The translations under genes and the position numbers were made by a program. From the IMG/VR virus record IMGVR_UViG_3300005590_000048, positions 1 through 38,947 of that record: 38,947 nt of DNA. One strand, 5' to 3'. Below the pieces are notes generated by a model. The model made no database searches, was not told the DNA's origin, and saw only the letters and a list, made by a program, of their open reading frames with translations. Each line of letters starts with the position of its first letter. Position 1 is the first letter of the stretch. Below, one piece after another: positions 1 through 38,947 of the stretch. This DNA is from a virus.

Positions 1-2685
1 GGCCTTACCCTCCATCAAATATTTCTCGAACCCACGGGCCACTTTCTCGTGGGCCTCTGTTGGTATGGTTTTTTCACCAACTTCAAACCCAGCCCACTGC
101 GCCAGGTACCCAAGCTCTTCGGCTATCTGGTCATTTTCCCTGGAGTAGTCGTTCAGTATCTCAAGGAAAACATGGGCAGATTCATGTATGGTCGTAGTGC
201 GGTTAGCATGCTTAGTGAGTGTAACTTTAAAGCCTTCCTCAATTCGCTGCATAAATCCGCGAGTAACTGTTTTATCGTCTTGCTTTAATTTTTTACCGCG
301 ATCTGCTTCAGTTAACCAGATGCTATCAAAACCTGACTCCACTTCTGCAGCCATTTCAGCTTTCACGTAAGCCGCATATAAATCAGCGTCTTTTTTGTAG
401 CTGTCAACATCCAGGCCCAAGTCCAGCATACGTTGTAGTAATTGATTACCTACTTCACGCTGCTTGAGTTTAGCTTCGTCAAAGACATCGCCTTTATCGT
501 AACGGACTCCGTTATCAATCTCGTTGTCCAGCACTTCACGGATATTTCTAGAAGTCCATATGGCGTTACCTTCCGCGTCAAATTCAGCATTAGGGCCTTC
601 TGTTGGTGGCGGGTAGCCCTCATCACGGACCATTTCTTCAATTCTATCCCAGGTATGTTTGGGTGCTGCGCCTAGCGTGCCCCCGTAACTCTCCATGACA
701 TCAGGGTCTTTAATACCGCCAATGCTTTTAACATACTCAAGTAGGCTAGCGCCGTAAATTGTACGGTCCTCAATCACTGCACCCCTACGAACTTCAGATA
801 CTAAGGCACGCAATTTGGTTAACGGCTCTGGTGTGCGGTCAAGTGTCTCTTTCTCTAAAAGCACCCTGTTATCAGCGTATAGCTTTTCAACTGAATAGCC
901 GGTGACTTCTGACAGCCTGGTGAAAAAAGCATCATATATACGAATAACAGCCTTAGCTTCTTTAGCGCCCTTGGCTACCGTAATATCTTCAAGAAGTTTT
1001 TGCCGAGGTGTATTCTCTTCCATACCCTCCATAAAATCAGCAGCTTCGTCGGTACCCTCTTCTTCCCAGGGAATATCTTCGTCATCATAATGCTTAGCTG
1101 TCGGGGAGCCCTGGAAAGCAAAAGAATCTTTAAGCTCTTCCAGCTTATTCGCTTTAGTGGCGGCCTGAGTTAACTCAACAAAAACTTCAGGTTGGGATAA
1201 GTCAAGGCTACCAGTGCCGTCGTTCTCAGCTTTTTCAATCGCTTTATTTAAATGTGGGTAGTTGTTGGCTATATCCAGGCCGTAGGGGTCATCGGAAAAA
1301 ATCTCGTCATCCGTCTGGAATAGCTTACGAACTTCATCAACTTCAATATCCACGCCGTCGAGCATATTGGTTGCGCCCTCGGCCACCATTAATGACGCAA
1401 GCTGGGTAGTGTCCGCACCTTCGACATCGCTCGCTTCTGATACAACGTCAACTAAATCGGAAGTCCTGGCTTTGGCAATTTTAGCGCCTTTACGGCGACT
1501 ACGCTCTCTCGCAGTGAAGTTAGCCAGGCCACCCATAACACCGAAGACGGTAGTTACCGGTAGAGCTTCAGCTGTCTGTTCACCGATGCGCGTAGGTAGG
1601 TTGAAATCTGCATTAGCTTCCGCAGCAGCAACATGGCCCAACGTAGAGATTGTCGCATTGACGCCCTCTTCAGCTGTCTCGATAGCTGTTATCGCAGCGC
1701 CTTTCACACCCGCGTAACCGAGAGAAGTCCATATAGTGCTGGTGTCCATTTCCTTGAACATCTTCTGCATCGTCTTGTCTTTCATCAAGATTTTAGATAA
1801 TTTCTTCGTCGGCATCGCAGCAAATTTTTCAAGCCCCGGGATCAACTTCGCTACAGCATGGAGCCCTACAACCTCTACCGTCGTGTTTAACGCGGCAATC
1901 GTTATGGCTGCATTTCTGGCTGATTCAGGATCAATTCGATTACCTTCAATATCTTTCGCAAAATATAACTCACGAAAAGTCTCCCCTGCTTGCGTAGGAA
2001 ACTCATAAGTTAACGCTGCATCGCCAGTCACACCAAGGCCAAAGGCTGTAGGTAAACTGACTGGGGTGCCCGCCCAGGAGATCGCACCAACACCGGAGAG
2101 CGATGCTATGGTGTTTGCGGTTAAAAGACCGCCTACGGCAAGTCCGCCGCCCTCTTTACCTTCCCAGACAAACCTGGAAATATCGGCACCTTGCTCGGCG
2201 GTCATGTGTAACCAGGACCAACCGCCCAGTACCTTGTTGTAGTCAACACGGTTTTCTTCTTCAAGTGCGCGTGCTTCTTCGAACCCAGGTTCATAACCTA
2301 AGTTTGACATCGCTGAAAGATCGTCAAGCGCACGATCACCTCGGCCCCAACCCTGGTCGATAGCTTGGTGGAAGGCATTGGCTAAATTAGTGAACTTACC
2401 GGTAGCGAAATAGGCTTTACGGGTAGCCGGGCTAACAGGCTCCAGCATACGGGCCTTATGCTCTTCGACTTCCTCTTCCCAAGGTTTCTCCGGAACTTCA
2501 GCATCTTCGGTACCAGCACCCGGTTTTATCTCAAACGGGTCGAAATCTTCAGACGCCCGGGGTTTTACATTTGATTCAAAATCAGGAATCGCATCAGGGT
2601 CAACGGTCTGTAAGTAATCCGCAGCAGACTCTTCGCTCTTTTGAGCGGCTTTCTCTACAAAATTAAATACATTCTCATCAGCCAT
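1..2685 (-). CDS. Giant internal virion / polyvalent protein with HExxH metallopeptidase, N-terminal part (runs off left edge)
   Basis: The frame is open from ATG 2685 to base 1 (895 codons) without a stop, so the gene is cut by the window edge. It starts directly after the stop of the upstream gene. Residues 834-838 read HESAH, the zinc-binding HExxH motif of gluzincin peptidases, followed by VFLEIL. The last residues read ARGFEKYLMEGKA, which resembles the segment after the peptidase in phage large polyvalent proteins and probably carries the third zinc ligand (E). Around residues 180-235 there is a Gly/Ala-rich hydrophobic stretch. By position (after gp14- and gp15-like genes) it corresponds to T7 gp16, the protein ejected into the host envelope; no lytic transglycosylase motif was seen. 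The ORF at 35418-38947 is probably its C-terminal half. Peptidase motif certain; virion role inferred. Confidence 0.8.
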   Translation of the reverse strand, partial: MADENVFNFVEKAAQKSEESAADYLQTVDPDAIPDFESNVKPRASEDFDPFEIKPGAGTEDAEVPEKPWEEEVEEHKARMLEPVSPATRKAYFATGKFTNLANAFHQAIDQGWGRGDRALDDLSAMSNLGYEPGFEEARALEEENRVDYNKVLGGWSWLHMTAEQGADISRFVWEGKEGGGLAVGGLLTANTIASLSGVGAISWAGTPVSLPTAFGLGVTGDAALTYEFPTQAGETFRELYFAKDIEGNRIDPESARNAAITIAALNTTVEVVGLHAVAKLIPGLEKFAAMPTKKLSKILMKDKTMQKMFKEMDTSTIWTSLGYAGVKGAAITAIETAEEGVNATISTLGHVAAAEANADFNLPTRIGEQTAEALPVTTVFGVMGGLANFTARERSRRKGAKIAKARTSDLVDVVSEASDVEGADTTQLASLMVAEGATNMLDGVDIEVDEVRKLFQTDDEIFSDDPYGLDIANNYPHLNKAIEKAENDGTGSLDLSQPEVFVELTQAATKANKLEELKDSFAFQGSPTAKHYDDEDIPWEEEGTDEAADFMEGMEENTPRQKLLEDITVAKGAKEAKAVIRIYDAFFTRLSEVTGYSVEKLYADNRVLLEKETLDRTPEPLTKLRALVSEVRRGAVIEDRTIYGASLLEYVKSIGGIKDPDVMESYGGTLGAAPKHTWDRIEEMVRDEGYPPPTEGPNAEFDAEGNAIWTSRNIREVLDNEIDNGVRYDKGDVFDEAKLKQREVGNQLLQRMLDLGLDVDSYKKDADLYAAYVKAEMAAEVESGFDSIWLTEADRGKKLKQDDKTVTRGFMQRIEEGFKVTLTKHANRTTTIHESAHVFLEILNDYSRENDQIAEELGYLAQWAGFEVGEKTIPTEAHEKVARGFEKYLMEGKA

Positions 2686-4593
2686 TTATAACCCCAACCC
2701 TACAGGCGCATCTGTGTATGGGCTAAATTCATCAGCTTCAGCTTCTTGTATCGCGTCGCCCAGGTATATCTCTCCAGGCTTAGCGCCATGCGCTCTTAAG
2801 AAGGCATCCTGGATCATGGTGTCTTCACCCCAACGCTTGCCGCTGCGTAATTCCTCTTCGAGGCTTTGGAAGAAAATTTCGCGCTTATACTCGTCTTTTA
2901 AACGGTCAGCCATTTCTTTAAAAGTCATGCTGGCCTTACCGCCCCAACCAGGCATTGTATATTTTATGTTCAATACATTAGCCATAAATTCACGATTCCT
3001 TAAAGTAGTGGCCTCCATATCTAAACCGAGGCCCGTGTCTTTACTGGTGAAAGCTGAAAACAACTCCCCGTACCTAAGGCCTGCTTTCTCGCGCTCAGGC
3101 TTGTCACCAACATCACGGGAAAAACCTAACCCATCTAAAATAATGGGTGAGTATTGGTCTTTAAAAACTTTATGTGCCGGTATAACGCCGGACTCTAAAG
3201 CAGTGTCGTCTTCACCTATACGCTGCAAAAGAGCGGTTCTTTCACGGCTTGCCAATCGGCCATAACCTTGAGGGTTTGCCTCTAACCAGGCCTTCGGGCC
3301 GCCTAGTTCAGGGTTCGCCATAACAGTGCGGTATGAGTTCATCATAATCGAATCTGTTTTACCAAGCTCACCAGTGCTTAAATTTCGCTCAACAACGCTG
3401 TTAATTTCATTGATTATATCTGTATCATAGAAAAGCCCTAAGGCACCACCTTCTTCACTCGCGGTCCGGTGCATGATATGTTTAAGTCGCTCACCTTCCT
3501 GAAACACTTGCTCGTAAGTTATTACGCCGTCGGGTGTAGGCACGCCTATCATTTCGGCCATGTTACGAAGTTTGGTTAACGCAGGGTTAAACTGATGCAA
3601 TACATCATTCCAGGTAGGCTTACCGCCACCTCCAAGCCCTTTGTTCTCGACTAAACGTCGTACAGCTTTTGCCCAAGATATTGATTTATCATCATTTTTT
3701 ATCTGGCTGGCCCTGACTTTCAAGTCCTGGATACTCACGCCTTTTACCTGGTGCATATTTTGAACAGTCATCCAGCTATCGTGGTCCAGTAAATCTTGCT
3801 CTAATTTAGCTTTAACCGCTTCATACTGGTCGCCGTAAACTTCTTTACCGTAGGCTTTAACTGTTTCCAGGGCGCTGCTAAAACGCTCTTTACGTTCAAC
3901 ATCATCAATATTTTTTTCATAAACTCGATCTAGGCTACCAATAACCTCGGCTTTCATAATACCGAAAAGCGCGGGCTCTTGGGTATCAGGCGTTAAGTCA
4001 GGGGCCAATGCTTTAGCCTCCTCGTACTTACCTTGCTCGGTCAACCTATCAATATTATCAAGGGTGACTTCTTGCTGCATTTTTTCAGCCTGGTCACGCG
4101 CTACTACCAATGAACGGGCAGTTTCTTTCTCGATAGTTACTTTTGCTTCAGCCTCAAATTTCTCTCTTAAAGGCCCATAACTTATACCTTCAGCCGCGCG
4201 GGCCGCGGCATCTTCTCTTAACTTACGTTGTATTTCAGGAAAGACTTTAAAATTTTGTATGACGTCTTCATCTTTACCACCTTGCCACACGAAATTTTGC
4301 GTTGTGTGCTGTGATACATCAATACCGAGTTCTTCAAGCTGAGACACCGGGATGTAATCACGGCCCTCAATATCCGCTATGCGGGTATCCGTTTCGGCCA
4401 TATGTGTATTAACATTCTGTATTTCAATGGTGTCACGACGATCTTGCAGCTCATCAAAAAGCTGCATACCCATTTCTGAAACTTTGGCGCCAACTTTTGC
4501 TTTGTTCGCAGCTTCATTAGCTATACGCTGGGCATCACTAGGCTCAGGCGTTAATTTCTCTACCCCTCGCTGTCTGTATTCAGGTAACTTCAT
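2686..4593 (-). CDS. Internal virion protein, T7 gp15-like position
   Basis: A 635-residue soluble protein rich in charged helices, for example residues 20-60 and 160-230, with long EAKA/KxxEE patterns suggesting coiled coils. No catalytic motif or signal peptide is visible. It sits between a small gp14-like protein and the giant peptidase-containing protein, the same order as T7 genes 14-15-16, whose products form the ejected inner core. Its ATG overlaps the upstream stop as ATGA, and its own stop directly abuts the next ATG at 2685, so translation is probably coupled. The function is inferred from position, size and composition; I do not recognise its sequence family with certainty. Confidence 0.7.
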   Translation of the reverse strand: MKLPEYRQRGVEKLTPEPSDAQRIANEAANKAKVGAKVSEMGMQLFDELQDRRDTIEIQNVNTHMAETDTRIADIEGRDYIPVSQLEELGIDVSQHTTQNFVWQGGKDEDVIQNFKVFPEIQRKLREDAAARAAEGISYGPLREKFEAEAKVTIEKETARSLVVARDQAEKMQQEVTLDNIDRLTEQGKYEEAKALAPDLTPDTQEPALFGIMKAEVIGSLDRVYEKNIDDVERKERFSSALETVKAYGKEVYGDQYEAVKAKLEQDLLDHDSWMTVQNMHQVKGVSIQDLKVRASQIKNDDKSISWAKAVRRLVENKGLGGGGKPTWNDVLHQFNPALTKLRNMAEMIGVPTPDGVITYEQVFQEGERLKHIMHRTASEEGGALGLFYDTDIINEINSVVERNLSTGELGKTDSIMMNSYRTVMANPELGGPKAWLEANPQGYGRLASRERTALLQRIGEDDTALESGVIPAHKVFKDQYSPIILDGLGFSRDVGDKPEREKAGLRYGELFSAFTSKDTGLGLDMEATTLRNREFMANVLNIKYTMPGWGGKASMTFKEMADRLKDEYKREIFFQSLEEELRSGKRWGEDTMIQDAFLRAHGAKPGEIYLGDAIQEAEADEFSPYTDAPVGLGL

Positions 4594-5063
4594 TTTGTAC
4601 CCCCACTACTGGGTATCGTCTTAGGTCCGCCAAAACCTCTATCAAAGGCCGTGGCGGTTTGCTGCACTGCCTGGAGCGCGTATAAGGTACTTTGAGCTTT
4701 CAATCCACTGGTGTCAATGGCAGCGCCTTTACGGGCCGCTACGGCCTTCAACTCTCCCGCTCTCAGTGTCCAGGCATTGGTCTTCTCTCGTTCAGTCCTG
4801 AGAAAATCCATATAGGCCCCTGTACTACCACTACCACGTAAGCCCGCAGCTGCAATAGTAGACATACCCTGGCCATGCTCTAGCGCGTCGGTTATAGCTT
4901 TACGACGAAGTGTTTCCGCTGTCTCCTCACGTATGAAGTCGCGAGCGGCTCTACCTGCTTTACCTGCTCTCTCATCAGCTTTTTCCGCTCCTGAGCGGGC
5001 TGTGGATGAGCTGTATAGGGCACTACCTATACCGGCTACTGCTGCAATCACTGGCCATACCAT
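4590..5063 (-). CDS. Small internal virion protein, T7 gp14-like
   Basis: A 157-residue protein with an N-terminal hydrophobic segment (about residues 3-17, VWPVIAAVAGIGSALYSSS region) followed by an Ala/Arg/Glu-rich helical part and a Gly-rich tail. Many podoviruses encode such a protein directly after tail tubular protein B. In T7 the equivalent, gp14, is ejected first and inserts in the outer membrane to help form the DNA channel. Its ATG overlaps the stop of the upstream gene by one base (TAATG), and its stop overlaps the next start (ATGA). Family assignment rests on size, hydrophobic N-terminus and gene order. Confidence 0.7.
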   Translation of the reverse strand: MVWPVIAAVAGIGSALYSSSTARSGAEKADERAGKAGRAARDFIREETAETLRRKAITDALEHGQGMSTIAAAGLRGSGSTGAYMDFLRTEREKTNAWTLRAGELKAVAARKGAAIDTSGLKAQSTLYALQAVQQTATAFDRGFGGPKTIPSSGGTK

Positions 5064-7786
5064 TATAAAAAGTCCTCTGCTATCTCAAGGAACACGCCCG
5101 AAATCCTAAAAGGTACCGGATCGGGTTGCGTTAACCTGATTAAACCGATTACAGAATCTTTAGTCTCTATCTCTAAAGGAAGATCACCGGTAAAGTTAAG
5201 TATAGGCCCTGTGTCGCCTCCTGTGGCTAATTGGTCACGAGGTAGCTGGCCGTTAACATACGGAGGCGCTGAAGCGTACACACGCACTGACCCTCTTCGA
5301 GGCTGCTTAACTGATAGTAACGGCGCTCTGCTCTGGCCGGTCACTACAGGTAGCGGCTCCCATGCTCGCTCAAAGGCATAACCTAGGGCTATCTGGGCCC
5401 CCTGCGGTACGTCTTTTAAAACTTTTCTGCTCTCGCTATCAAATTCTATATCCTTCGGCTCCCCATTAATTAACGCATGAGTGTACTTATACGCTTCTGG
5501 GGGTATTAGAAAGTCCGAATACGTCACATCAGGATCAATAGAATTTAGGTAAAAACGCGTGGAGTCTAGTAACGCCTCGTCTTCAACTTCAAGTGACAAG
5601 GCATTTTCCCTGCGAACCAACAACCAAATTCTTCCGTCGCCAGGTAAGTTAGTGTGACATGAGCTAACTACCTCCGCGCCTACGTCGTAATTAAAAGACC
5701 CAAAGACTTCTGTTTCAGGTGCTACAGTGAAGCCCACTAAACGGCCTGAACTATTGACTAACCATAATATGGACTCAGGGTTATTGCTGTAATATAAATC
5801 AGTAGGGCTGTTAACAAGATGCTCAGCGTAAGTGCTGACTTCCTCTGAAGTCCAGCTCTCATTACCTTTGTTAAAATCTATGGCACGTAATTTTTTATCG
5901 CTGGCGTCTACAAAAATAACACTGGTACCGACAACTGCGACCTGCTGGTCGACCGCTCCGAAACGACTCTGTACCGTCACACGTGGCGGGTTCATAGCTG
6001 ACAGGACAGTGCCTTCAGCTCTCAATGCCAGTTCCCCTAGCGTAGTGCCGACAAGTAAATCGTCGCGACTCGCTAACCAACGGATGACACCACCGGTAGC
6101 AAGATCATAAGATAAAGCCTCGTCAGCTGAAGCTGGTACCGCTGGCGGGTCAATATTCAAGTAATCATTCGACGCGCTACCCCAAAGCCTGAAAGGTTTG
6201 GCAGCGACGCCACCCCACCAGGAACGCCCTTGGTAAAAGGTAACGCAACTCGGATAATTATCAGGGCCCCACTCAGAAGGGAAGCCTGTGGGGTTAGCTA
6301 CTGTAAAAGACCATAATTCCGTCACCCTGTTATAGGACAGTATGTGTGGCGGATAGCCCTCAGACACAAAATACATTGCATCATTCTCAGGGGCCGTAGC
6401 AAACTTCAAACTAGCCAGAGCCTCCTTGGGGTATGGTGAAGGCACCACCGCGCCTGAGTCTGATGTCTCTAGTGGCGTGGTTATTGATATTTTTTTAAAC
6501 CCAATTTCTTCATCCCAGTAAGCTCGTTTATTGCTAACCTCGGAATAGTTAGGCCCTAAATCTCTTGTGCGCGGGTCTTCGACTACCTCATTAGGTGGCC
6601 CAACTACCCTGCGCGTGGGATCGCCGTAGGTTCTGACTGAAACCCAGACAGGCGTTGTACTACCAGGGCCGCCACCAGTGCCGACGTAATCTCTCAAGTC
6701 TACGACCATTGTATCTGTACTACCGAGGGCGCTCTGGGCTAACTCTCTACCTGATGTAAGCCTTTTTGTGGCTTCAAGCCTATCAAGCTCTTCCTGGGTA
6801 TTTTCTAAATCAGGGTTGCGGCCAGGCTGAAAACGGTCAGTAATCCAGCTCTCTATGTACGCCAGGTCTTCGTCAGTCTCTTCATTCTTCGCGTAGCGGG
6901 TCCATGCATCAACAGGTTTAATATCTTCTAAATCCGCGGGCACCCTGGAGCGATTAACTGAATTAGAATATATAAGACCTATGTCAGAGGCCCCTTCAGT
7001 GGTACCTAACTCAACAACAAAGTACCGCTGGCTATTCTTTCTGAGATCACTCTCGTCACTAAAACGGAGATACCTCTCAGGGCTCAACCAGGTGTTGACG
7101 GACTCTATAGTTAAATTAACTTCAGTGCCGTCATTAGGTAAACTCACTAGCTGGGAAACACGCCCTACAATACTTAAGTGATCCGGTACCAGCTCAATCT
7201 GAGAGTCATCAACACTGTCAACACCGTTGCTTTCAAAACGTATGTCGCGAGTGCTGGACCTTAAAACCAACGGCGCGTCAATGTAATTACCATCATTTCT
7301 GGTCACGAAGAAATTAGGTGCCGGGATAATACCGGTGACATCCGCAGGGCGCACAGTACCTATCGGCGTTAGCGCGTAACTTTCTGGAGTCCACGCCTCA
7401 TCAGTGATCATCGTCTTACGCCAGCCTGTAGTATTCCAGCTCGAAAAATCAAAGGTGAATGTAGGGTTTAGTAAATATTCTAACTGGTTAGCGAAACGCT
7501 CCCCCAGTATTTGGAGGTTGCCGTCGTCACGAAAAATTAAGACACCTTCCTGGAAACCTTCAATTTCTAAGGGAAAAATTTTCGCGTCATCACCAGGTAT
7601 GTCCAAAAAATGTTTGAATCCGTTACGACCTTCAAGGCTACCCTGGCGGGTACCTCGGCAATTCTTCATTTCACGGGCCCACGAGCTATATTTCTCGCTA
7701 TCTACGCGCCCGCGAACTGAGGGTGCAACTTCACCCCCTGAAAAATCTGTGTAATTTAAACTGGATTTTTTACTTACATTACTCAA
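5063..7786 (-). CDS. Tail tubular protein B (T7 gp12-like nozzle)
   Basis: A 907-residue protein beginning with a FSGGEVAPSVRGRVD motif, then a conserved stretch with NCRGTRQGSLEGRNGFKH, the recognisable N-terminus of podovirus tail nozzle proteins. It later contains TFYQGRSWWGG (around residue 515) and VGTTLGELAL, also typical of the family. Six copies form the distal tail tube in T7. It is somewhat longer than T7 gp12 (about 800 residues). Its start overlaps the end of tail tubular A by 8 bases, matching the usual A-B gene order. The start ATG at 7786 is followed by the conserved N-terminus within about 10 residues, supporting the choice. Confidence 0.9.
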   Translation of the reverse strand: MSNVSKKSSLNYTDFSGGEVAPSVRGRVDSEKYSSWAREMKNCRGTRQGSLEGRNGFKHFLDIPGDDAKIFPLEIEGFQEGVLIFRDDGNLQILGERFANQLEYLLNPTFTFDFSSWNTTGWRKTMITDEAWTPESYALTPIGTVRPADVTGIIPAPNFFVTRNDGNYIDAPLVLRSSTRDIRFESNGVDSVDDSQIELVPDHLSIVGRVSQLVSLPNDGTEVNLTIESVNTWLSPERYLRFSDESDLRKNSQRYFVVELGTTEGASDIGLIYSNSVNRSRVPADLEDIKPVDAWTRYAKNEETDEDLAYIESWITDRFQPGRNPDLENTQEELDRLEATKRLTSGRELAQSALGSTDTMVVDLRDYVGTGGGPGSTTPVWVSVRTYGDPTRRVVGPPNEVVEDPRTRDLGPNYSEVSNKRAYWDEEIGFKKISITTPLETSDSGAVVPSPYPKEALASLKFATAPENDAMYFVSEGYPPHILSYNRVTELWSFTVANPTGFPSEWGPDNYPSCVTFYQGRSWWGGVAAKPFRLWGSASNDYLNIDPPAVPASADEALSYDLATGGVIRWLASRDDLLVGTTLGELALRAEGTVLSAMNPPRVTVQSRFGAVDQQVAVVGTSVIFVDASDKKLRAIDFNKGNESWTSEEVSTYAEHLVNSPTDLYYSNNPESILWLVNSSGRLVGFTVAPETEVFGSFNYDVGAEVVSSCHTNLPGDGRIWLLVRRENALSLEVEDEALLDSTRFYLNSIDPDVTYSDFLIPPEAYKYTHALINGEPKDIEFDSESRKVLKDVPQGAQIALGYAFERAWEPLPVVTGQSRAPLLSVKQPRRGSVRVYASAPPYVNGQLPRDQLATGGDTGPILNFTGDLPLEIETKDSVIGLIRLTQPDPVPFRISGVFLEIAEDFL

Positions 7787-8390
7787 AGTCAGGCCTGCTA
7801 CCGGTGCCCGTTAACCTCGCACGGTGCAAACGGCCCTCTTTACGGTATTCTGATGAGCCCTGTACTGCGTCGTAGGAAGCTGCGATAGATAATTGCTTAA
7901 TCGCTTTCTTGTCAAGGCGGTCGTGAAGTGTTTTTGATTCGGGAATACCCAATGCAATCTCAGCCGCTAGACGATATTCAAGCGCCAAACGAAACGCAGG
8001 AGAGTAATCACTCACAGGTACCGTTTTACTGACATACTGGATATTTAAAGGATTCGGCACGAAACCTCCAAGGAGTAACAATGTACGACCCTGGATGCGC
8101 CATTTCTTTATAGACTCACGATTACGAGGTAGCCCGTCGATATAACCAACGCGCACGCAATCATTAGGAAGCTGGAAAGCTGCTTGAGCGTGTGGCGGTG
8201 TCTCGGCTAACCGAGGTAACGTCACAGTCTTGGAAGCGAACCCCCAGAGTGCAGACTCAATCAACTCTTCTTTAAGAGTAGGCAACAAGGCTTTACATAA
8301 CCGTGCGCCTTTCGTGGTGTCTTCTATATCACCGATACGCTCTGCGCCAACACGCGCCAAAGCATTGTTAGCAATCGTCGTATCCGTCAT
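7779..8390 (-). CDS. Tail tubular protein A (T7 gp11-like adaptor)
   Basis: A 203-residue protein with the family signature ANNALARVGAERIGDIED at the N-terminus, followed by an ARLCKALLPTLKEELIESALWGFA helix, then a C-terminal segment RLALEYRLAAEIALGIPES. These match head-to-tail adaptor/gatekeeper proteins of podoviruses, which form a ring linking the portal to the nozzle. The length is close to T7 gp11 (196 residues). It lies directly upstream of tail tubular B and overlaps it by 8 bases. The assignment is strong from sequence and context. Confidence 0.92.
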   Translation of the reverse strand: MTDTTIANNALARVGAERIGDIEDTTKGARLCKALLPTLKEELIESALWGFASKTVTLPRLAETPPHAQAAFQLPNDCVRVGYIDGLPRNRESIKKWRIQGRTLLLLGGFVPNPLNIQYVSKTVPVSDYSPAFRLALEYRLAAEIALGIPESKTLHDRLDKKAIKQLSIAASYDAVQGSSEYRKEGRLHRARLTGTGSRPDFE

Positions 8391-8406
8391 AGCTGACCCC
8401 TACGTG

Positions 8407-8550
8407 TTAATCTTCTTTAGCCTTTTTACTGGCCGCAGCTTTTTTCTCTTTAATATTTTTTGGTTTCTTTGGCTCGCCTGGCTCTGCGCTTGGCTGGCCC
8501 TTTCGCCTTTTTGCTTGGTTTTGCAACCTTTCTTCTAGTGGTAGTGCCAT
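8407..8550 (-). CDS. Very small basic protein in a frame overlapping the preceding gene
   Basis: A 47-codon ORF starts at ATG 8550 inside the 80-residue gene (8450-8692), in another frame, and ends with TAA at 8407, filling the gap before tail tubular A. The product begins MALPLEERLQNQAKRRK and ends AAASKKAKED; it is lysine- and proline-rich, with no membrane segment. An AGAGG Shine-Dalgarno-like site lies 9 bases upstream of the ATG. The bases 8407-8449 would otherwise be unused in a densely packed operon, which is the main argument that it is real. Function unknown. The alternative is a +1 shifted extension of the upstream gene, for which no clear slippery site was seen. Confidence 0.5.
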   Translation of the reverse strand: MALPLEERLQNQAKRRKGQPSAEPGEPKKPKNIKEKKAAASKKAKED

Positions 8551-8692
8551 TTTTCATCGCCTCTAGTACCTCAACAGCTTCGGACCTGGTGATACCCAGG
8601 CCCTCAGATGTTGTTAGAATGTCAAGACGGCCAAACTTCCTGCGAAGTCCGACCGCTCTCTCCGTTAATGCTTTCAGTTCAACCGATTGCAT
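8450..8692 (-). CDS. Small late protein following the capsid gene, unknown
   Basis: An 80-residue protein whose ATG overlaps the capsid stop codon (TAATG). Residues 1-50 are predicted helical (VELKALTERAVGLRRKFGRL, then TRSEAVEVLEAMKNG), and the last 30 residues are very basic (KKAKGPAKRRARRAKETKK). Such a tail suggests binding to DNA or to an acidic protein surface inside the head. The position between capsid and tail adaptor genes fits a head-completion or minor head protein, but no family was recognised. The basic tail region also encodes the start of an overlapping small ORF in another frame. Confidence 0.7.
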   Translation of the reverse strand: MQSVELKALTERAVGLRRKFGRLDILTTSEGLGITRSEAVEVLEAMKNGTTTRRKVAKPSKKAKGPAKRRARRAKETKKY

Positions 8693-9552
8693 TAAGCGTC
8701 GTCGTGATCAAAGAATACGATTTTCTCGTCTTCTACACGAGTCGCAGCCATTGTCCACGCAGCGTACACTTGAATGAGGTATGACAAGTCATCACGCTCA
8801 TTAACACGGAACATCATATCCTGGTTCACACCAAGGCATAAGGCATCCATTGTGTAGCACATGTTGTAAGTACGGCCTGCGCCAGCACTTTCCAAACGGT
8901 TCGACAAAATTGCTTTACCGCCAAAGATGCTTGAAACCACACCATTGGTTAGTAGCATGTTCAACTTCTGGTAGTCAGAGTTGATGATCTTATCATCATT
9001 CAATAACTCTTTAACCGCAGAAGGTGAAAGCACCCAGCAACGCTCATCATCAGGATCAACATCACCTGAGTGCAAGAAGTCTTGCATTTCAAGTACGTTT
9101 GAATAATCCAGTTTTTGAGTCGCACCACCTAGGGTATTAGCACCAGGTAGCGGAACGGCAACACCGTCGCCGTCAAGTGCATCAGCACGGGCAGAGGCAA
9201 TAAGTAAGTCGTCAATCGCACGACGCATAGACATACCACAGTTTTGAGCATATGCATTTTGAGGGTCGATAAGCATTTTAACTTTATCTTCCTGCTCAAA
9301 GGTGTCAGCCCAGTGGAAAGTCTTAGGTGTCGCAACACGACGGCTCCAAGGCGAATCAACGAAAGGCGTAGCAACACGAGCTGCTGTCTTCTCGATTGAA
9401 TCGGTTTGGCCTAGACGGTCAATATTAAGAGCTTCACCAGTCAAAGGTTCCTCACGAACCGTTGGGCGAAGGCGTGTATCTGATTGCTGCGCAAGATGCA
9501 CAACATTGTCCTTAAATTGCTGGACAAAAGCACTGTCGATTGTAATAGCCAT
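8692..9552 (-). CDS. Major capsid protein
   Basis: A 286-residue protein recognisable as a podovirus-type HK97-fold coat protein: N-terminal helix (FVQQFKDNVVHLAQQS), a central MSMRRAIDDLLIASARADAL region, then YSNVLEMQDFLHSGDVDP and WVLSPSAVKELLNDD, and a C-terminal AAWTMAATRVEDEKIVFF strand. It resembles capsid proteins of BPP-1-like and related phages (Phage_capsid_2 type, from memory). It follows the scaffold gene and precedes tail genes. A GGAG ribosome site lies 8 bases before ATG 9552, and a strong sigma70-like promoter (9662-9689) lies about 110 bases upstream, which would give it extra transcription. Confidence 0.92.
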   Translation of the reverse strand: MAITIDSAFVQQFKDNVVHLAQQSDTRLRPTVREEPLTGEALNIDRLGQTDSIEKTAARVATPFVDSPWSRRVATPKTFHWADTFEQEDKVKMLIDPQNAYAQNCGMSMRRAIDDLLIASARADALDGDGVAVPLPGANTLGGATQKLDYSNVLEMQDFLHSGDVDPDDERCWVLSPSAVKELLNDDKIINSDYQKLNMLLTNGVVSSIFGGKAILSNRLESAGAGRTYNMCYTMDALCLGVNQDMMFRVNERDDLSYLIQVYAAWTMAATRVEDEKIVFFDHDDA

Positions 9553-9645
9553 GATGCTATCTCCAAATATATTTATTTATATTTAAAAAGTCTCACACCG
9601 TGGCCGAATATACGGGGGCGTTAAATTTTTGCCGTATCCATAAAT

Positions 9646-9673
9646 GGGGGCATTTGTTCATATAATAGCCCCC
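9646..9673. repeat. GGGGGC inverted repeat flanking the capsid promoter -10 box
   Basis: GGGGGC at 9646-9651 and GCCCCC at 9668-9673 form a 6-bp inverted repeat with a 16-base loop holding the -10 element. A further direct copy of GGGGGC lies at 9614-9619. It could be an operator or an RNA hairpin in the leader. Short arms limit confidence. Confidence 0.4.
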
Positions 9674-9689
9674 TTTACGTTGCTGTCAA
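9662..9689 (-). promoter_or_regulatory. Sigma70-type promoter for the capsid gene
   Basis: On the minus strand, TTGACA (9684-9689, perfect -35) and TATTAT (9662-9667, 5 of 6) are separated by 16 bases. An alternative -10 reading, ATTATA, gives a 17-base spacer. It points at the capsid gene start at 9552. GGGGGC/GCCCCC arms at 9646-9651 and 9668-9673 flank the -10 box, which may be a regulatory palindrome. Confidence 0.7.
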
Positions 9690-9691
9690 GC

Positions 9692-10570
9692 TTATACGCT
9701 AATTGACATCGAAACTCCGTTATCGGCAGGTTTCGTGCCATGCGCGTATTGGTACAGCTTACGCATCTGTTCCTGGGCCGCATTATGCCCTGGGTCCGCC
9801 CTGTTATGGTACGGATGCGCTGAGTTATTTCGTATCTCAGTGATACGCGCTTGAGCTTCACCTGGTGTCATCGCAGTAGCTTCCTGGCCCTGGAGCCCCG
9901 TATCAATACTGCTACCACCTTCGGCATTAAGTTTTTCAGCCATGGCTAAAAACTCTTTGCAGGTTTCAAGTCCGAAAGTCGCAAGCTCAGTGTCTTTCAC
10001 TGAAGGGAAATTTTTCGCTAGAAAATCCTTGATGATGTTGGTCTTGCCCTCATACGCGGCCCCGAACTCAGCTTTGATAGCTGTCTCAGCTTCCGTCATC
10101 TTGGTTTTTTCATTGGTTTGCCCTGTGAGTGTGCTTTCTAACTCACGCTTCGCCAATGCATCAAATTGTTTTTGGGTAAGCCCTAAGCTGTGGGCCAGTT
10201 CCCCAAAGGCCTGAAAACCTTCAGCTTCCATCGACACGCCTTCAGGCGGCTCGGTGATCGTGTACCCAGAGGCTTCACCTGGTCGGCCTAGCTGTTGGTA
10301 GACATTGGTCAGCATATCATCATAACCCTCGTCACCTTCCTGCGGGAGTTTGATAACACCCGGTACTTTATCAACCAACTTCTGAGTAAACTCAAGCATT
10401 TGCTCAGTGCTGGCATCTTCGCCGGGTATACGAATACTGTTACCACGGTACTCGTTCAAGTCCTGGACACGCTGGAATACCGCCTCCATGCTATCGGCTT
10501 CTTTTACAACACCCATTTCATGGTATTGTTCGGGTATGGCTTGACGCCATTCAGTGTTTTCTTCTGACAT
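9692..10570 (-). CDS. Capsid assembly scaffolding protein
   Basis: A 292-residue acidic protein immediately upstream of the capsid gene. Motifs EWRQAIPEQYHE near the N-terminus, a GRPGEASGYTITEPPEG segment around residues 95-112, and a helical Glu/Lys-rich part (residues 120-200: LGLTQKQFDALAKRELE) match phage scaffolding proteins of this type. Scaffolds guide procapsid assembly and leave before DNA packaging. The C-terminal 30 residues, with RKLYQYAHGTKP, may be the capsid-contact helix. Two bases separate it from the Bbp19-like gene, indicating cotranscription. The call is well supported by sequence pattern and position. Confidence 0.85.
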   Translation of the reverse strand: MSEENTEWRQAIPEQYHEMGVVKEADSMEAVFQRVQDLNEYRGNSIRIPGEDASTEQMLEFTQKLVDKVPGVIKLPQEGDEGYDDMLTNVYQQLGRPGEASGYTITEPPEGVSMEAEGFQAFGELAHSLGLTQKQFDALAKRELESTLTGQTNEKTKMTEAETAIKAEFGAAYEGKTNIIKDFLAKNFPSVKDTELATFGLETCKEFLAMAEKLNAEGGSSIDTGLQGQEATAMTPGEAQARITEIRNNSAHPYHNRADPGHNAAQEQMRKLYQYAHGTKPADNGVSMSISV

Positions 10571-10572
10571 GG

Positions 10573-10785
10573 TTAATCCTCGATGGTGGTTTTTATAGCT
10601 AATATTACGCCGCGCTGGCCCTGCTTGTAGAAAGACTTGTTGATATTATCGTCGAAGGTATTACCCCCAAACGACTTCTCCAGGTCTTCTAAAACCATTT
10701 TACCTGCGGGCGAGTTAAATACCTGACGGTATGCACTGACAATTTTTTCTCGCTCTTCGTTTTTTACGACGGGGCGTTTGTTCAT
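10573..10785 (-). CDS. Bbp19-like small phage protein
   Basis: A 70-residue protein with YRQVFNSPAGKMVLEDLEKSFG followed by a YKQGQRGVILAIKTTIE segment, the pattern of the Bbp19 family first seen in Bordetella phage BPP-1. These small proteins lie between portal and scaffold or capsid genes in many podoviruses; the molecular role is not established. The ATG at 10785 overlaps the portal stop (ATGA). The short, helical, charged protein has no membrane segment. Confidence 0.8.
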   Translation of the reverse strand: MNKRPVVKNEEREKIVSAYRQVFNSPAGKMVLEDLEKSFGGNTFDDNINKSFYKQGQRGVILAIKTTIED

Positions 10786-14038: not shown

Positions 14039-14229
14039 TTGAAGTTAGCTATCCGTAGTTCCAGCACACCTAAATAAGCTTCCATGATCGGTAACTGTAG
14101 TGACAGCATAGCCCTTTCGGCTGGATCAAGTTCCTGGAACATCGGAGTGTCTAAAAAAGTGTCTAACTTACTGGCTTTCGCCCGTAACTCATTATGCTCA
14201 TCGACTACTCTTTGTTGGTGGGGTTGCAT
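14035..14229 (-). CDS. Small helical phage protein (crAss001_48-related type)
   Basis: A 64-residue protein starting MQPHQQRVVDEHNELRAKASKL and continuing with an EELDPAE-type turn and a second helix ending LELRIANF. This two-helix pattern (PHQQRVVDE...L..KL..F) recurs in small phage proteins that I recall under the name crAss001_48-related; function unknown. It lies between the terminase subunit genes and overlaps the terL start by 4 bases, so it is almost certainly translated. The family link is from memory and needs a profile search. Confidence 0.6.
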   Translation of the reverse strand: MQPHQQRVVDEHNELRAKASKLDTFLDTPMFQELDPAERAMLSLQLPIMEAYLGVLELRIANFK

Positions 14230-14231
14230 AG

Positions 14232-15219: not shown

Positions 15220-15283
15220 GGTTAGCTATTGGGTAGCTCTAAAAACAGCTTAACCTATTGATACCGTTACCAAATACCGCATT

Positions 15284-30598: not shown

Positions 30599-30725
30599 CT
30601 TGAAAACCAGAAAAGAAATTGAAGAGGAAGATCGTAACAAACGTCGAGGCGACATACTAAGTATAATCGCCCTGGGTTTTTTCATCCTGGTAATGGGCCT
30701 TATAAGCGGGCTACCTGGTGCTTAA
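30591..30725 (+). CDS. Small single-pass membrane protein at the end of the rightward operon
   Basis: A 44-residue ORF from ATG 30591 (GGGGTGA upstream) to TAA 30725. The first 20 residues are charged (DDLKTRKEIEEEDRNKRRGD) and the rest is one transmembrane helix (ILSIIALGFFILVMGLISG). The positive residues just before the helix suggest a cytoplasmic N-terminus. It ends face to face with the leftward lysis genes, sharing TTAA, with the stops in the loop of a CTGGTG/CACCAG hairpin. Role unknown; a lysis-related function is possible but it is on the other strand. Confidence 0.6.
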   Translation: MDDLKTRKEIEEEDRNKRRGDILSIIALGFFILVMGLISGLPGA

Positions 30726-30732
30726 TCACCAG
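30715..30732. terminator. Hairpin containing both convergent stop codons
   Basis: CTGGTG (30715-30720), loop CTTAAT, CACCAG (30727-30732). The loop holds the TAA stops of both strands. The stem is short and lacks a T-run, so termination efficiency is uncertain. Confidence 0.35.
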
Positions 30733-30955
30733 CACGGTGCCTTTCAGCTAACCTATCAAGAGCGCTAGTCACACCTACTATAGTGTCGTTAGTCTCTTTA
30801 TGCCGTCTTTCATCGGCTTCACGCCACTCACCACGTTCCTCCCGATGCTCATCCCGCATAACTTTCTGGTCGTCTTGGTAACGCTTCAGGCTATAAAGCA
30901 TAAAAGCCACCATAAGACCCACCAAACCGTACTCTTGAAACGCCGCAAAATCCAT
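30722..30955 (-). CDS. Holin-like / BhlA-type single-pass membrane protein
   Basis: A 77-residue protein with one N-terminal transmembrane helix (about residues 8-24, GLVGLMVAFMLYSLK) followed by a long, highly charged helix (KVMRDEHREERGEWREADERRHKE). This is the layout of BhlA/UviB-type holins and some phage lysis accessory proteins. It is the last gene of the late operon, after the endolysin and another holin-like gene. Function inferred from shape and position; it could also be a spanin-like or regulatory lysis protein. Confidence 0.6.
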   Translation of the reverse strand: MDFAAFQEYGLVGLMVAFMLYSLKRYQDDQKVMRDEHREERGEWREADERRHKETNDTIVGVTSALDRLAERHRAGD

Positions 30956-30964
30956 AATAGGCTC

Positions 30965-31213
30965 CTAGTCGTCGCTGTGTTTCTGATAAAGGCGCATACC
31001 CAGCACCCAGATTGCAGTCACCAGGGCAGTGACCGAAGTTGTCTCGATAGTGTCTACACCACCAAGACTGTATTGCTGGTAGATAGCCAGTGCGCTTGCG
31101 AAGATACCCCCGGCGCTGGCTTCTTTAATACCGGTCTTCGGCTTTGATTTAATTTTTGAGATAACCGCTATCAATATTTCTATGCCTGCTTTGATTGCCA
31201 ATGGGTTAGCCAT
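30965..31213 (-). CDS. Putative holin
   Basis: An 82-residue protein with two hydrophobic stretches, about residues 34-50 (AGGIFASALAIYQQYSL) and 58-76 (TTSVTALVTAIWVLGMRLYQ), and an amphipathic N-terminal helix. Size, basic loops and location directly after the endolysin fit a phage holin that permeabilises the inner membrane at the end of infection. Three bases separate it from the endolysin gene. The specific holin family was not identified. Confidence 0.6.
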   Translation of the reverse strand: MANPLAIKAGIEILIAVISKIKSKPKTGIKEASAGGIFASALAIYQQYSLGGVDTIETTSVTALVTAIWVLGMRLYQKHSDD

Positions 31214-31216
31214 AAT

Positions 31217-31525
31217 TTACTCCGGGTCGTATTCTACATGGATGTGAGATTTATGAACTACAACATCATAGTCCGAACCTAATGCTGCTCGCAGTTTTTC
31301 TGCGGCTTCTTCTTTTTCGTCTTTAGTAAAGTAACGGGATCGCAAGTCGATAGCCAGGCCGTAGTAATGTAGGCTGCCTGCTGAGTGTGCGCCGTCAAGC
31401 CCTGCGGTAATAACAAGTTCCTGGCCCAGCTCATTCCAGATAGCGTCGGCACTGATAAGTACCTTACGCATGACAAGCTGCAAGCCCGCAAGAATCACAC
31501 CATCTTTAATTTGCATTAAGGCCAC
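31217..31525 (-). CDS. M15-type endopeptidase endolysin
   Basis: A 102-residue protein with the peptidase M15 zinc motifs: SLHYYGLAID (residues 51-60) supplying H53 and D60, and HKSHIHVEY (91-99) supplying the last His ligand. The preceding VITAGLDGAHSAG fits the family. M15 enzymes such as phage L-alanoyl-D-glutamate endopeptidases cut peptidoglycan cross-bridges. There is no signal peptide, so export should need the neighbouring holin. The protein is short but seems complete. It overlaps the upstream gene by 10 bases. Confidence 0.85.
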   Translation of the reverse strand: MALMQIKDGVILAGLQLVMRKVLISADAIWNELGQELVITAGLDGAHSAGSLHYYGLAIDLRSRYFTKDEKEEAAEKLRAALGSDYDVVVHKSHIHVEYDPE

Positions 31526-33295: not shown

Positions 33296-33304
33296 ATTAA
33301 ACCT

Positions 33305-33889: not shown

Positions 33890-33895
33890 TCTGCT

Positions 33896-35425
33896 TTACT
33901 CCGATAACTTAATGACAGAAAGTGAACGCTCATGCACGTTAGCAGTATCAGTAGTATACCACCACACATCAAATGTATGGCTGCCTGCACCTACCACGGT
34001 CACTAACTCAGAGTGAATATTGTATATCGCTTCTTTCTTCTTAAAGAATACTTGCCTTAAAGTCCAGGCTGCCGCTACAGCATCCTGACGTATGTAGTAA
34101 GACATAACATGGTCATCTGAATCAACATTACCCGTACCATCAAAAACGCACAGGAATGTACCTGGCCCCGTTACGGTGACAGACATTGAAGGCATTAAGT
34201 CACCCGGCGCACCTAGCGAGGTACTTGGTGAGTTGGTTGCAACGGAAGTCGAGGCTTCGTTCAAGCCGTAAATATCACTACGTTCTTGGTTGGTGATTAT
34301 CGCACCTGAGCCCGCGTTACTAACGTCACTGTGGGTAGTTACCGATCCGGTAGCTGATACCTTATTATCCCAAGCTGTCTGCTCAGCATCCGAAGGTATG
34401 TTACCGTCGCCTACCGAGTTAATATCGCTCAACAATGCTGCGGAGGTATTCTGGAAAACAGGGTCGAGATTAATATCCAAAAGAGGCGTAGGGTCGTTAC
34501 GTCTTGAGCCTGCAATTATCCGGTAAGTAGGTGATCCCGCGGGATCGGGAGTTCCCCCAGGCCTGTCTGGGTTAAGGCCTAAAATATATTGAATATCATA
34601 ATCAATATCGTCGTCAAACTTTAACTGATTAAGTGCGTCGGTTGCCGTAGTACCGGCTACATCTGACGCATTAGCTATCTCATTCGTTGAAGGTGGCGGC
34701 ACTACAGGCGCAACGGCGGCTATATTACCAACACACTGTTCAACCCAATGCTCTTGCGTACCGGTGTTAAAACGGATAAAACTCTGACCTGTTGACGGTA
34801 TGGTCCAGGTATCATTAACCCTCGCGGCACCAGGCTCAGTTTCCTGAGCGTAGTTCGTCGGGGTTTCATGGGGGTTAGCCACATCAGCTACATGGTCAGT
34901 AATCTGAGTCTGTAAGTCTTCAAGCTCAGTGCCTAATTCAAAATTCTCAAGCACACCTTCCACATCCGACCACATAGGTATCGCACCTTCAAGGTACGCA
35001 GGGAATATAACGTCGTATGTAGGTAAAGGTTGATCTGGATCAAGGCTTATCTTATACACCAGTTCATCGCGTATACGCTGAACAACTAAAGTCTGCTTGT
35101 CGATAGCCTGCTCGTGTAAGTCCGCGGGGAAACGCTCAAACGGTGAGTAATCCACGGTCTGGTCAGCAGGCACGTTCTGGCGTATAGACACCACGGCCTG
35201 GTCCGCTGGTGCGGTGTTGAAAGTTACCTTGGCGCTAACTACTGGGTTCGCCAGGTCAGCAGGCTTACCGTTTGCTGTCTCAAGATCAACAGTGTAACCT
35301 GTGACATCTGCGCTATCGACACGCACAATAAGCTCATCGGCATTGTATATTGGAGCCGGGTAGAAATACTCAACCGCTACGCCGTTGCCAGTGTAGTGGT
35401 ATATCGTGGGTTTATCATCAATCAT
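33896..35425 (-). CDS. Tail fibre protein (T7 gp17-like N-terminus)
   Basis: A 509-residue protein. The N-terminal 150 residues (IYHYTGNGVAVEYFYPAPIY, then VTFNTAPADQAVVSIRQNV and an HEQAIDKQTLVVQRIRDEL helix) match the T7 gp17-type anchoring domain that attaches the fibre to the tail. The remainder is beta-rich, with a LEDLQTQITDHVADVANPHET helix and a C-terminal jelly-roll-like part (FLCVFDGTGNVDSDDHVMSYY). It overlaps the end of the giant protein gene by 8 bases. Anchor domain clear; receptor tip uncertain. Confidence 0.85.
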   Translation of the reverse strand: MIDDKPTIYHYTGNGVAVEYFYPAPIYNADELIVRVDSADVTGYTVDLETANGKPADLANPVVSAKVTFNTAPADQAVVSIRQNVPADQTVDYSPFERFPADLHEQAIDKQTLVVQRIRDELVYKISLDPDQPLPTYDVIFPAYLEGAIPMWSDVEGVLENFELGTELEDLQTQITDHVADVANPHETPTNYAQETEPGAARVNDTWTIPSTGQSFIRFNTGTQEHWVEQCVGNIAAVAPVVPPPSTNEIANASDVAGTTATDALNQLKFDDDIDYDIQYILGLNPDRPGGTPDPAGSPTYRIIAGSRRNDPTPLLDINLDPVFQNTSAALLSDINSVGDGNIPSDAEQTAWDNKVSATGSVTTHSDVSNAGSGAIITNQERSDIYGLNEASTSVATNSPSTSLGAPGDLMPSMSVTVTGPGTFLCVFDGTGNVDSDDHVMSYYIRQDAVAAAWTLRQVFFKKKEAIYNIHSELVTVVGAGSHTFDVWWYTTDTANVHERSLSVIKLSE

Positions 35426-38400
35426 CGAAGTATTCCTCTATCTCTTCGGCCAACTCTTTAGGCATTTTCGTCGGTAGCTTTAAGCCTAGACCTATTGCGG
35501 TTAATAGTCCAGAAGGTTTCAGTGATGTAGCCCCGCCGTACAGCGATTGGCTATAGTCAACAAACGGCCCCCTAAACTGCCCTGTGTAAAGCTCGGAACT
35601 TATTAAAGACCCCAGCCCTGGAATTGTGCCAATGGATGAAGACACTGAAGAAGTCAGGCTGTTACGCATATAGCGGTACCAAAACTCTTCCTCTTCACTG
35701 TCATCAGTCTCTTGCCAGGCCGTACGAAACAGCGCATCAACCATAGGCATAAGTATCAATAAAGGCATCAACTCGTAAAAACCTTTAGTCTTAGTGTAGA
35801 TTTTTTCTTCGGCATTGGCTAATTTATGTTCTAATACTTTAATATTAGCTTGCTCTTCGGCTGTCAACGCACGGCCTTCAGCCTCCGATTTAATCTTCTC
35901 AATAGCAGCCCTGTGAGCTACAACACCCCTATCTCCATGGCGTACACGTAATCCAGTGTTTAAAATCTTACTGGCAAAGGCCGATAGTGGTGTAGAGAAT
36001 AACGCTGCAAGTCTGTAAAAGCCCCTACGGCTTTGGTAGTACGATAAGTCGTGAATCTGGCCTGAGCCCTGGGTCAAACGTACCGCACTGTCAGCTTCTT
36101 CAACCGCGCGCGCTTGATTGTTATGCTCTTCAATACCTTGCTGGTACCTGGCGTGCCAAACGGTCATAGATACTTGGCGTTGTACCGCCATGATCATAAG
36201 GAAACTGCCTTCACGAATATCAATAACGGCCCCGTCAAAGCGTGATTTATGTAGCTTACGGGTAAACTCCCTGATGTTGACATCAAAGTTAGCTTCATAA
36301 TTCTTCATAAAGCCGCTCATTTCACGGGCCTTATCCATGGAAGCCGTTGGGTTCGCCAGCATTTCACGTACAGCACGCCTGATATATTTACCTTTTGTGT
36401 CTGTAGCCGCGTTAACCAGGCCGTAATAGTTTTTAGCTGCCGACACTGGATTCCAGCCAAGGTGGAAGATTGTTGTCGCAGAGGCTATATGGTCCAGAAG
36501 ATCATCAATACTGCCAGCTTCACCTATAAACCTGCGGTTAGTAGCTACCTGCAATAGTTTAGCTTTGAAAGTCTGGTAAACTTCTTTACCGAAATAATTA
36601 GTCATTGTGTCTTCAAGCGCTCTCAGCAACTTGTCAGCCTCAACAACTTTCTCGTAGTGCGTAACCATATGGGCACTATCTTCAATATGTGTGTGCGCCA
36701 CGCTTAAGTCCAGCAGTAAAGGAGCCACAACACTGGTACGCTCCATAGTCACACCAGTACCAACACGGACCAGCTCTTTAGCGGCCTGCATGGCATCTGC
36801 GGGGTCTTTGGTGCTTTCGATAATATTTTTTACCGCAGCATCGTAGCCTCCGTTGGCGTCTTTCAACCGGTCTTTATTCGCAGAAGTTAAGCCTCTATCG
36901 TAAACAACTGGGTAATACATACCCTTAATAACGCCGTGCTTAGTCTGTATGGCGACACCTTCAACCTCAACAAAGTCTTTCAGCAAGACTTTTTCAGTGA
37001 ATTTTTTAATTGGGTTTTTCAGCCTGTTAACAGCCTTCCAGGTATCCGTCACATAACGCCAGTCAGCCTTAGTCATCACACGATCAAGCTCAGCCATGAC
37101 AGCATCTTCGGACCAACGCTCATAGCCTTCAAGCGCCGCGTACCCATTAACCAATTTCTCTCGGTTACTCAAGGTACCTACGTTCAAGGCAATAGATAAG
37201 ACCTGGGCTTTACTCATTGTTTTGCCTAAAAACTCTACGTCGGCACCCAGGGCCAGATCATTCATTCTACGGCTTAAAGCACTTGGGCCTTCTTTAGATG
37301 CTGCAACAGCCTGGTTTAACCTGGTGGCGGCATCTTCAAGGTCTTTGATAGGGCCATTAGCCATATCGTCACGAGCGTTTGCAGCCTCTTGGGTCCATCC
37401 GTAAATATTCTTGTACCAGATACCAACCTTACCACCGTCAGCTATCTTCAGCAGGCCCTCAAGTTTAGTGATTTCACCGAACCATTTATTGAGCTGGTTT
37501 AAAATTTTTGTCTGTATGCTGCCTTCGACATCCGTGGTAGCTCGCTCCAGTGCGTACATATTTTCATCAATCGACTCTTTCATTTCTTCAATAGTCGCTT
37601 CACGAGCTGCTAGGCGTTCAGCCGTTTGGCTGGCTTCATAGGCTTTAGCTTCTTTATAAATACGATCAGCAAAACCGGCAATCTCTTTTAATTGCTCGTA
37701 TGATAATTCTTTAAAGTTTGGTATTTCATCCTGGAACTCTTCGAGTAAAGGAACATCACCGATAGTTCGCAGCTCACCGGAGTCATTCAAGAATTTATCT
37801 AACCGTTGTAGATTCTGGTTAGGGTTTAAGTCCTTCAGTTTCTTTTGCTTAAAGTCAAAAGAATTTAGGAAGTTAAACATCACATTATGGTAGTTTATCT
37901 CTCCGGTGCTGGCCCTGCGTAGGGCATCCTGGCGAGATTTTTTGTAATATTTGTTCAATCGTTTAGGTAGCGTATTTCTGAACCTGACGACATTCAAAGC
38001 CTCTTTATAGGCTGTCATTGCAAAATGCGCATCCTGTGAGGCTTTCAGAGCTTTCGCATAATCCTTGTTGTTAGGGTCCGCGAGTGCGTCGTTCATGGTG
38101 CGGATAGCTTTCTTGTACGCACGAAGGTACATATCAGGCTTCACAAAGCCTATAGCTTTCTTGCGAATCTGTTTTCTGTACCGCGATGTAATATCTGAAA
38201 GTACAGGGGCCCGCTGCTTTGACCTTGAAGAAAAAATCCGGGTCCATGCATACAGCGTAATTTCGCTGGTCTTTTCAGCCATTATCATATCGGCCTGTAC
38301 TTCAATACCTTCGGTACTAAACTCACGAGCCAAACGGCGCTCAACTTCAGCTTTCACTTCCTGGGCCATAGGCGTTATGGAAGTAAGCTGGTTAACCATA

Positions 38401-38947
38401 TCTTCAATAGAATCAAAGCCGTAGTCCTTGGCAACTGTTTCTGGGGGTATCCCTTCGCCAGGCTTCGCGTCTTTATTCGTCATCATATGGCGAACACGTG
38501 CAAGCCCTTGGGCCGTTGCGTAATGCGCTTTCATCAACGGCGCATTGAGCTTAGCGTTATCACCGTATTTTTTATCAATGTCAGTCTCTTTGCCTGAGAG
38601 GTATAGCGCCAGGCCAGCTACAGGGTCTTTACGACGCTGGGCTTCTATCTCCTGGGTAACTGTCTCCGTCAGGTCAATACGACGCTGCTTACGTTCTGCC
38701 TCGGACTCTTTGTTCAAGTCACGCATAACCATGGCGCGTATCTCATTGGCTGCTTCACGCATGGCTGTTTCCACCAGCGCACGCCCCTCGGCATCCATTA
38801 ACTCAGGCAGGCCTTCAACCTTACCCATTTCAAAATCATATTTGGCTTCTATAGCCAGCCTTTCAGATGTCAGCATCAGGTTGAAAAACTCACGAGCTTC
38901 ATCCGATAGCTCCAGTTTACTTCGCATGGCCTTACTGTATGCATGCA
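35418..38947 (-). CDS. Giant internal virion / polyvalent protein, C-terminal part (enters from right edge)
   Basis: The frame is open from base 38945 (HAYSKAM...) down to the stop at 35418, about 1175 codons. The first ATG inside, 38927, is probably not the start because the frame stays open upstream to the window end. The first residues (KLELSDEAREFFNLMLTSE) resemble the part following the peptidase and EGKA segment in phage polyvalent proteins. Further on come long helical regions (residues 150-700) and, near the C-terminus, a LAALFSTPLSAFASKIL and LMPLLILMPMVDALF hydrophobic part. It is most simply the remainder of the gene at 1-2685, giving a protein near 2,090 residues. Confidence 0.75.
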   Translation of the reverse strand, partial: HAYSKAMRSKLELSDEAREFFNLMLTSERLAIEAKYDFEMGKVEGLPELMDAEGRALVETAMREAANEIRAMVMRDLNKESEAERKQRRIDLTETVTQEIEAQRRKDPVAGLALYLSGKETDIDKKYGDNAKLNAPLMKAHYATAQGLARVRHMMTNKDAKPGEGIPPETVAKDYGFDSIEDMVNQLTSITPMAQEVKAEVERRLAREFSTEGIEVQADMIMAEKTSEITLYAWTRIFSSRSKQRAPVLSDITSRYRKQIRKKAIGFVKPDMYLRAYKKAIRTMNDALADPNNKDYAKALKASQDAHFAMTAYKEALNVVRFRNTLPKRLNKYYKKSRQDALRRASTGEINYHNVMFNFLNSFDFKQKKLKDLNPNQNLQRLDKFLNDSGELRTIGDVPLLEEFQDEIPNFKELSYEQLKEIAGFADRIYKEAKAYEASQTAERLAAREATIEEMKESIDENMYALERATTDVEGSIQTKILNQLNKWFGEITKLEGLLKIADGGKVGIWYKNIYGWTQEAANARDDMANGPIKDLEDAATRLNQAVAASKEGPSALSRRMNDLALGADVEFLGKTMSKAQVLSIALNVGTLSNREKLVNGYAALEGYERWSEDAVMAELDRVMTKADWRYVTDTWKAVNRLKNPIKKFTEKVLLKDFVEVEGVAIQTKHGVIKGMYYPVVYDRGLTSANKDRLKDANGGYDAAVKNIIESTKDPADAMQAAKELVRVGTGVTMERTSVVAPLLLDLSVAHTHIEDSAHMVTHYEKVVEADKLLRALEDTMTNYFGKEVYQTFKAKLLQVATNRRFIGEAGSIDDLLDHIASATTIFHLGWNPVSAAKNYYGLVNAATDTKGKYIRRAVREMLANPTASMDKAREMSGFMKNYEANFDVNIREFTRKLHKSRFDGAVIDIREGSFLMIMAVQRQVSMTVWHARYQQGIEEHNNQARAVEEADSAVRLTQGSGQIHDLSYYQSRRGFYRLAALFSTPLSAFASKILNTGLRVRHGDRGVVAHRAAIEKIKSEAEGRALTAEEQANIKVLEHKLANAEEKIYTKTKGFYELMPLLILMPMVDALFRTAWQETDDSEEEEFWYRYMRNSLTSSVSSSIGTIPGLGSLISSELYTGQFRGPFVDYSQSLYGGATSLKPSGLLTAIGLGLKLPTKMPKELAEEIEEYFDD

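Follow-up and report, generated by a model that had tools for sequence, protein, structure and literature searches.

Bordetella phage BPP-1 (Rauchvirus, bbp10) and the Caulobacter phages SR18 and Jess A (proposed Jessavirus) have a large protein gene that is preceded by a lysozyme-type gene and followed by a tail fiber gene. The window analyzed here is the complete 38,947-base IMG/VR contig IMGVR_UViG_3300005590_000048, and its edges are the contig edges. It has a homologous large protein gene in the same setting, with the lysozyme slot assigned by position. Its TerL is 45 to 47% identical to those of BPP-1, SR18, and Jess A, whereas the head, portal, and replication genes differ. For this comparison, no reverse transcriptase was found among the PHROG matches of the window. 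A further set of relatives is the Pseudomonas phages HU1, AF, and UFJF_PfDIW6 (Purivirus), in which one gene of 2039 to 2213 codons matches both window edges with a 19-residue spacer. Identity is about 23 to 25% over the matched large-protein parts, and only 22 to 30% for TerL and portal.

CheckV and IMG/VR recognize a complete circular virus contig by a direct terminal repeat that is 20 bp or longer (PMC8116208). The window has no such repeat, and a search for a terminal overlap between its two ends found none. We conclude, with a probability of about 0.94, that the window represents a single, essentially complete podovirus genome with a circular map, opened inside the large gene with the loss of about 49 bp.

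The open frames at the two contig edges

Two minus-strand frames are open at the contig edges (Table 1). The left frame has no stop up to base 1 and ends on a whole codon with HEKVARGFEKYLMEGKA (EGKA). The right frame is open at its start, begins with HAYSKAMRSKLELSDEA (HAYSKAM), and has a stop after 1175 residues. It is preceded by the two remaining bases of a broken codon (xTG-H-A-Y). The preliminary description had reported both open frames, and it had argued that the length of the gap has to be 1 mod 3 and that joining the ends directly breaks the frame. The frames at the edges bear out each of these points.

Both edge open reading frames (ORFs) match PHROG 9880 (length 2231). The left piece matches positions 924 to 1043 (E = 4e-19), and the match runs to its last residue. 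The right piece matches positions 1118 to 2032 from its residue 52 (E = 4e-84), which places its first residue near position 1067. Because these are adjacent, non-overlapping stretches of one family with such E values, the match between the edges is more than chance. An alignment of both halves to one full-length homologue, which had been proposed as a check, gave the same answer. In HU1, PfDIW6, AF, and Cobetia phage Carin1, both pieces match neighboring stretches of one annotated gene of 2039 to 2854 codons, and a single full-length large gene was found in nine phages. Also, when the codon usage of 36 gene pairs was compared at matched size, no pair was closer than the two halves, whose distance falls in the range obtained when a gene is compared with itself.

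Alignment-based scans of IMG/VR and GTDB genomes provided 160 more homologue loci. (Scans that used a single sequence of the large protein, the portal, or the tail proteins as query yielded no loci.) The junction domain and the C-terminal part were in one open frame at 159 of the 169 fetched loci that have the C-terminal part. The remaining 10 were six frames starting at a contig edge, L158 (at an edge and broken), L163 (broken), L169 (one ORF, in which the junction domain was undetected), and L171. In L171, the junction-bearing ORF stops at a TGA about 865 residues past the domain, and the remainder follows directly, in frame. The preliminary description had named separate genes for the two halves in homologues as the contrary case. 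We looked for this in the 169 loci, and none had the large gene split at the window's cut site. With the adjacent PHROG 9880 matches and the single ORF at 159 loci, its claim that the two edge frames are parts of one gene stands. (The L171 TGA is near position 10660 of that locus, between 2336-codon and 532-codon parts of the homologous large gene, and it is possibly due to recoding, mutation, or sequencing error.)

The gene order across the join is terminase, portal, head, tail, 635-aa gene, large protein, fiber, and lysis, as in relatives. Without the join, the late module is divided between both contig ends. PHROG matches and the order in relatives agree with the earlier claim that the late gene order is unbroken only across the join. 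Each hallmark gene is present in one copy, judged by PHROG matches in the window. The endolysin-like gene (31217 to 31525) had no match in the PHROG library. A 26-nt inverted repeat (15283 to 15308 and 15373 to 15398, 96% complementary, with a 64-nt loop) sits in the gap where the late module, read leftward, meets the early modules, read rightward. The early modules include a RadC-like JAB-domain gene (16100 to 16549, plus strand) and a PAPS-reductase-like gene (24488 to 25306, plus strand).

Table 1. Features of the window that bear on the join between its ends
Feature	Position	Strand	Basis
N-terminal 895 codons of large polyvalent-type protein gene, broken by contig edge after EGKA	1..2685	-	Open to base 1; PHROG 9880
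HESAH (HExxH), zincin-like metallopeptidase-type segment	172..186	-	Read in left piece (P0001); aligns with invariant HExxH of homologues
635-aa gene directly upstream of large gene, where relatives have the virion lysozyme-type gene	2686..4593	-	Position alone; homology not found
Late module: 187-aa gene (TerS position), TerL, portal, protease-like gene, major head protein, tail proteins	4590..14795	-	PHROG matches
Probable lysis genes: M15-peptidase-like endolysin (31217..31525, GTG start) and small membrane proteins	30722..31525	-	Translations by eye
Tail fiber-type gene directly downstream of large gene	33896..35425	-	PHROG tail fiber matches; order as in relatives
C-terminal 1175 codons of the same large gene, open at contig edge, starting HAYSKAM	35418..38945	-	PHROG 9880
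TG of broken codon; 49 nt inferred missing between TG and base 1	38946..38947	-	19-residue spacer in 159/159 homologues

The missing segment and its domain

The spacer between the A of EGKA and a conserved Y is exactly 19 residues in all 159 alignable homologue matches (136 distinct sequences). Pairwise alignments and a weak profile alignment placed Y3 of the right piece at the conserved Y. Because the spacer is constant, the missing segment is best put at 16 codons and one base, or 49 nt, so that the window would be short of 17 residues, the last of which is the partial codon xTG. An indel peculiar to this phage would shift this value by multiples of three, and no insertion at this site was found in any of the 159 alignable homologues. 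The preliminary description had put the loss at about 60 bases, which was a fair estimate that we revise to 49. It had also linked EGKA, through about 20 residues, to an AY...LSDE-type segment. This linkage holds in the homologues and in the placement of Y3, and the window's own spacer is in the missing bases.

To place this segment, we modeled one homologue, L016, with AlphaFold2, using 33 aligned sequences as input; the local pLDDT was about 80 to 95. The model has a HExxH helix and a later Glu-bearing helix, and the lost segment sits on a confidently predicted helix after the HExxH and ARGFE helices. Therefore, the contig cut is predicted to divide a folded domain. A PDB fold search for confirmation of a zincin gave no significant match, and the zincin-like label comes from the HExxH motif and the polyvalent-protein survey of Iyer and colleagues (PMC5512222). 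Pfam LPD22 was found in eight of nine aligned members of the PHROG 9880 family. No Pfam domain, LPD22 included, was found in either piece (P0001 or P0002) at E 0.001, likely due to divergence, and we do not call the product an LPD22 protein. We infer that the gene encodes an ejection-type virion protein that has a HExxH domain of zincin-like type.

The ends might belong together with a gap other than 49 nt, either by an in-frame overlap at GGCCTTAC, implying a deletion, or by a larger insertion or intron. GGCCTTAC occurs at both ends (1 to 8 and 38928 to 38935). These 8 shared bases keep the reading frame, and the right-hand copy is 12 bases from its edge. The chance of such a recurrence is about 3e-4 for the last 20 bases and 1% for the last 300. 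Furthermore, some cause must exist for the assembly to break here. We count the shared GGCCTTAC against a 49-nt loss. However, no homologue has an insertion at the site, and an overlap join would remove a helix-forming segment of fixed length that all 159 homologues retain. For the latter reason we rejected a direct join via GGCCTTAC, and a gap of any other length is improbable.

Origin of the break

According to the authors of CheckV, the point at which an assembler breaks a circular template appears to be random, and a repeat of k-mer length remains, for example 55, 77, or 99 bp (PMC8116208). In the 49-nt reading, a circular, concatemeric, or terminally redundant template would have given a ring-shaped assembly graph. 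The assembler would have opened this ring at an arbitrary point, inside the gene for a large polyvalent-type protein of about 2,087 residues. With no end overlap left, IMG/VR would have found no end repeats. The closed genome would be about 38,996 bp, and the loss of about 49 bp would amount to 0.13%.

Another contig, IMGVR_UViG_3300036770_004468 (L045), has a related large gene and was opened within the same domain. Unlike those of the window, its ends overlap by an exact 127 bp, so that it closes without loss and the large gene is whole across the overlap. L045 is a different phage, with about 25% protein identity to the window, and we therefore took the equality of its size to the predicted 38,996 as coincidence. 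By our analysis, it is a direct precedent for a contig cut inside this domain. Among 23 edge-truncated homologues, the distance from the cut to the motif downstream of it ranged from 11 to 1523 residues, with no clustering. This scatter does not indicate a fixed physical end, and together with the L045 precedent it favors an arbitrary assembly cut. Two further observations count against our reading. A 49-base loss in place of an end overlap is an atypical assembler signature, and no read or contig spans the join, exact end probes of IMG/VR having found no second contig of this phage. (The flanking bases had been suggested as a check, but the record is the entire contig, with no bases past its edges.) The loss may be a matter of coverage, strain variation, or end trimming.

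The contig could instead be a chimera of pieces from two related phages, with a separate copy of the gene at the end of each piece, so that the edges just look complementary. A mosaic genome and the codon usage of TerL (see below) would fit this. However, the edge pieces are complementary without overlap, no other pair tested is as close in codon usage, and every hallmark gene is single copy, which makes a chimera very unlikely. Just as unlikely is a linear genome with a true fixed end inside the large gene, the gene being mended on circularization and the terminal bases being lost in library preparation. The lack of an end overlap, unlike a typical circular assembly, would agree with that, but the cut sites of related contigs are scattered. 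Also, the deposited genome of SR18, a TerL relative, has terminal repeats of 2.08 kb that are 99.9% identical to each other, and these are at its terminase genes and a long way from the large gene. (These could be true long repeats or captured redundancy.) We hold it similarly doubtful that the edges mark a real terminus or a preferred packaging cut in the metallopeptidase-type domain, with a virion gene broken until circularization. Least credible is a linear genome that has the two halves as distinct genes, one at each end. An ATG at 38927 permits an alternative 1169-aa reading of the right ORF, but the region of homology begins before this ATG, at residue 3, and the left frame is without a stop. 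Moreover, a split would cut the modeled domain helix, and no related locus splits here, the other breaks being contig edges, the broken L163 frame, and the far-downstream TGA of L171.

The preliminary description had called the molecule circular or circularly permuted. One gene across the ends and the late gene order uphold a circular map, but permuted virion DNA is not derivable from the window. Circular assembly is possible for headful, terminal-repeat, and cos phages alike, and the window does not distinguish among them. SR18, with its deposited terminal repeats, is among the nearest terminase relatives. "Circular map" is the wording supported.

The chief use of this finding is in completeness calling. 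A contig without end repeats was shown by a split-gene test to be about 99.9% of a genome, and terminal overlap was not needed. The same test (two edge ORFs on adjacent parts of one protein family) could rescue near-complete viral contigs that overlap criteria miss.

Comparison with known phages

No DNA-level relative of the window was found among 50,697 phage records. The genome is a mosaic in which the nearest relatives differ between the TerL, head, and replication genes. TerL is 45 to 50% identical to those of DC33, zth2-2, SR18, Jess A, and BPP-1. The TerL gene (12401 to 14038, minus strand) is a codon-usage outlier, with a GC3 of 0.60 versus 0.42 to 0.57 in other genes. Whereas DC33, zth2-2, and BPP-1 are relatives by TerL, the portal and head genes point to ZP6 and K300, and TerL was probably acquired separately. 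(Limnohabitans phage DC33 [L176, PQ492659.1] is filed under Inoviridae. However, a TerL homologue is present in its genome of 39 kb, and the large-protein match falls in a gene of 9.4 kb. Judged by this content, it is a tailed phage.)

Alteromonas phage ZP6 (Mareflavirus) and Vibrio phage K300 have the nearest portal (38% and 37%), head, and tail genes to those of the window, but its large protein gene has no match in either. That assembly should open a circular-mapping genome within a gene and leave it nearly complete is ordinary; the phage itself is a poorly described, mosaic podovirus.
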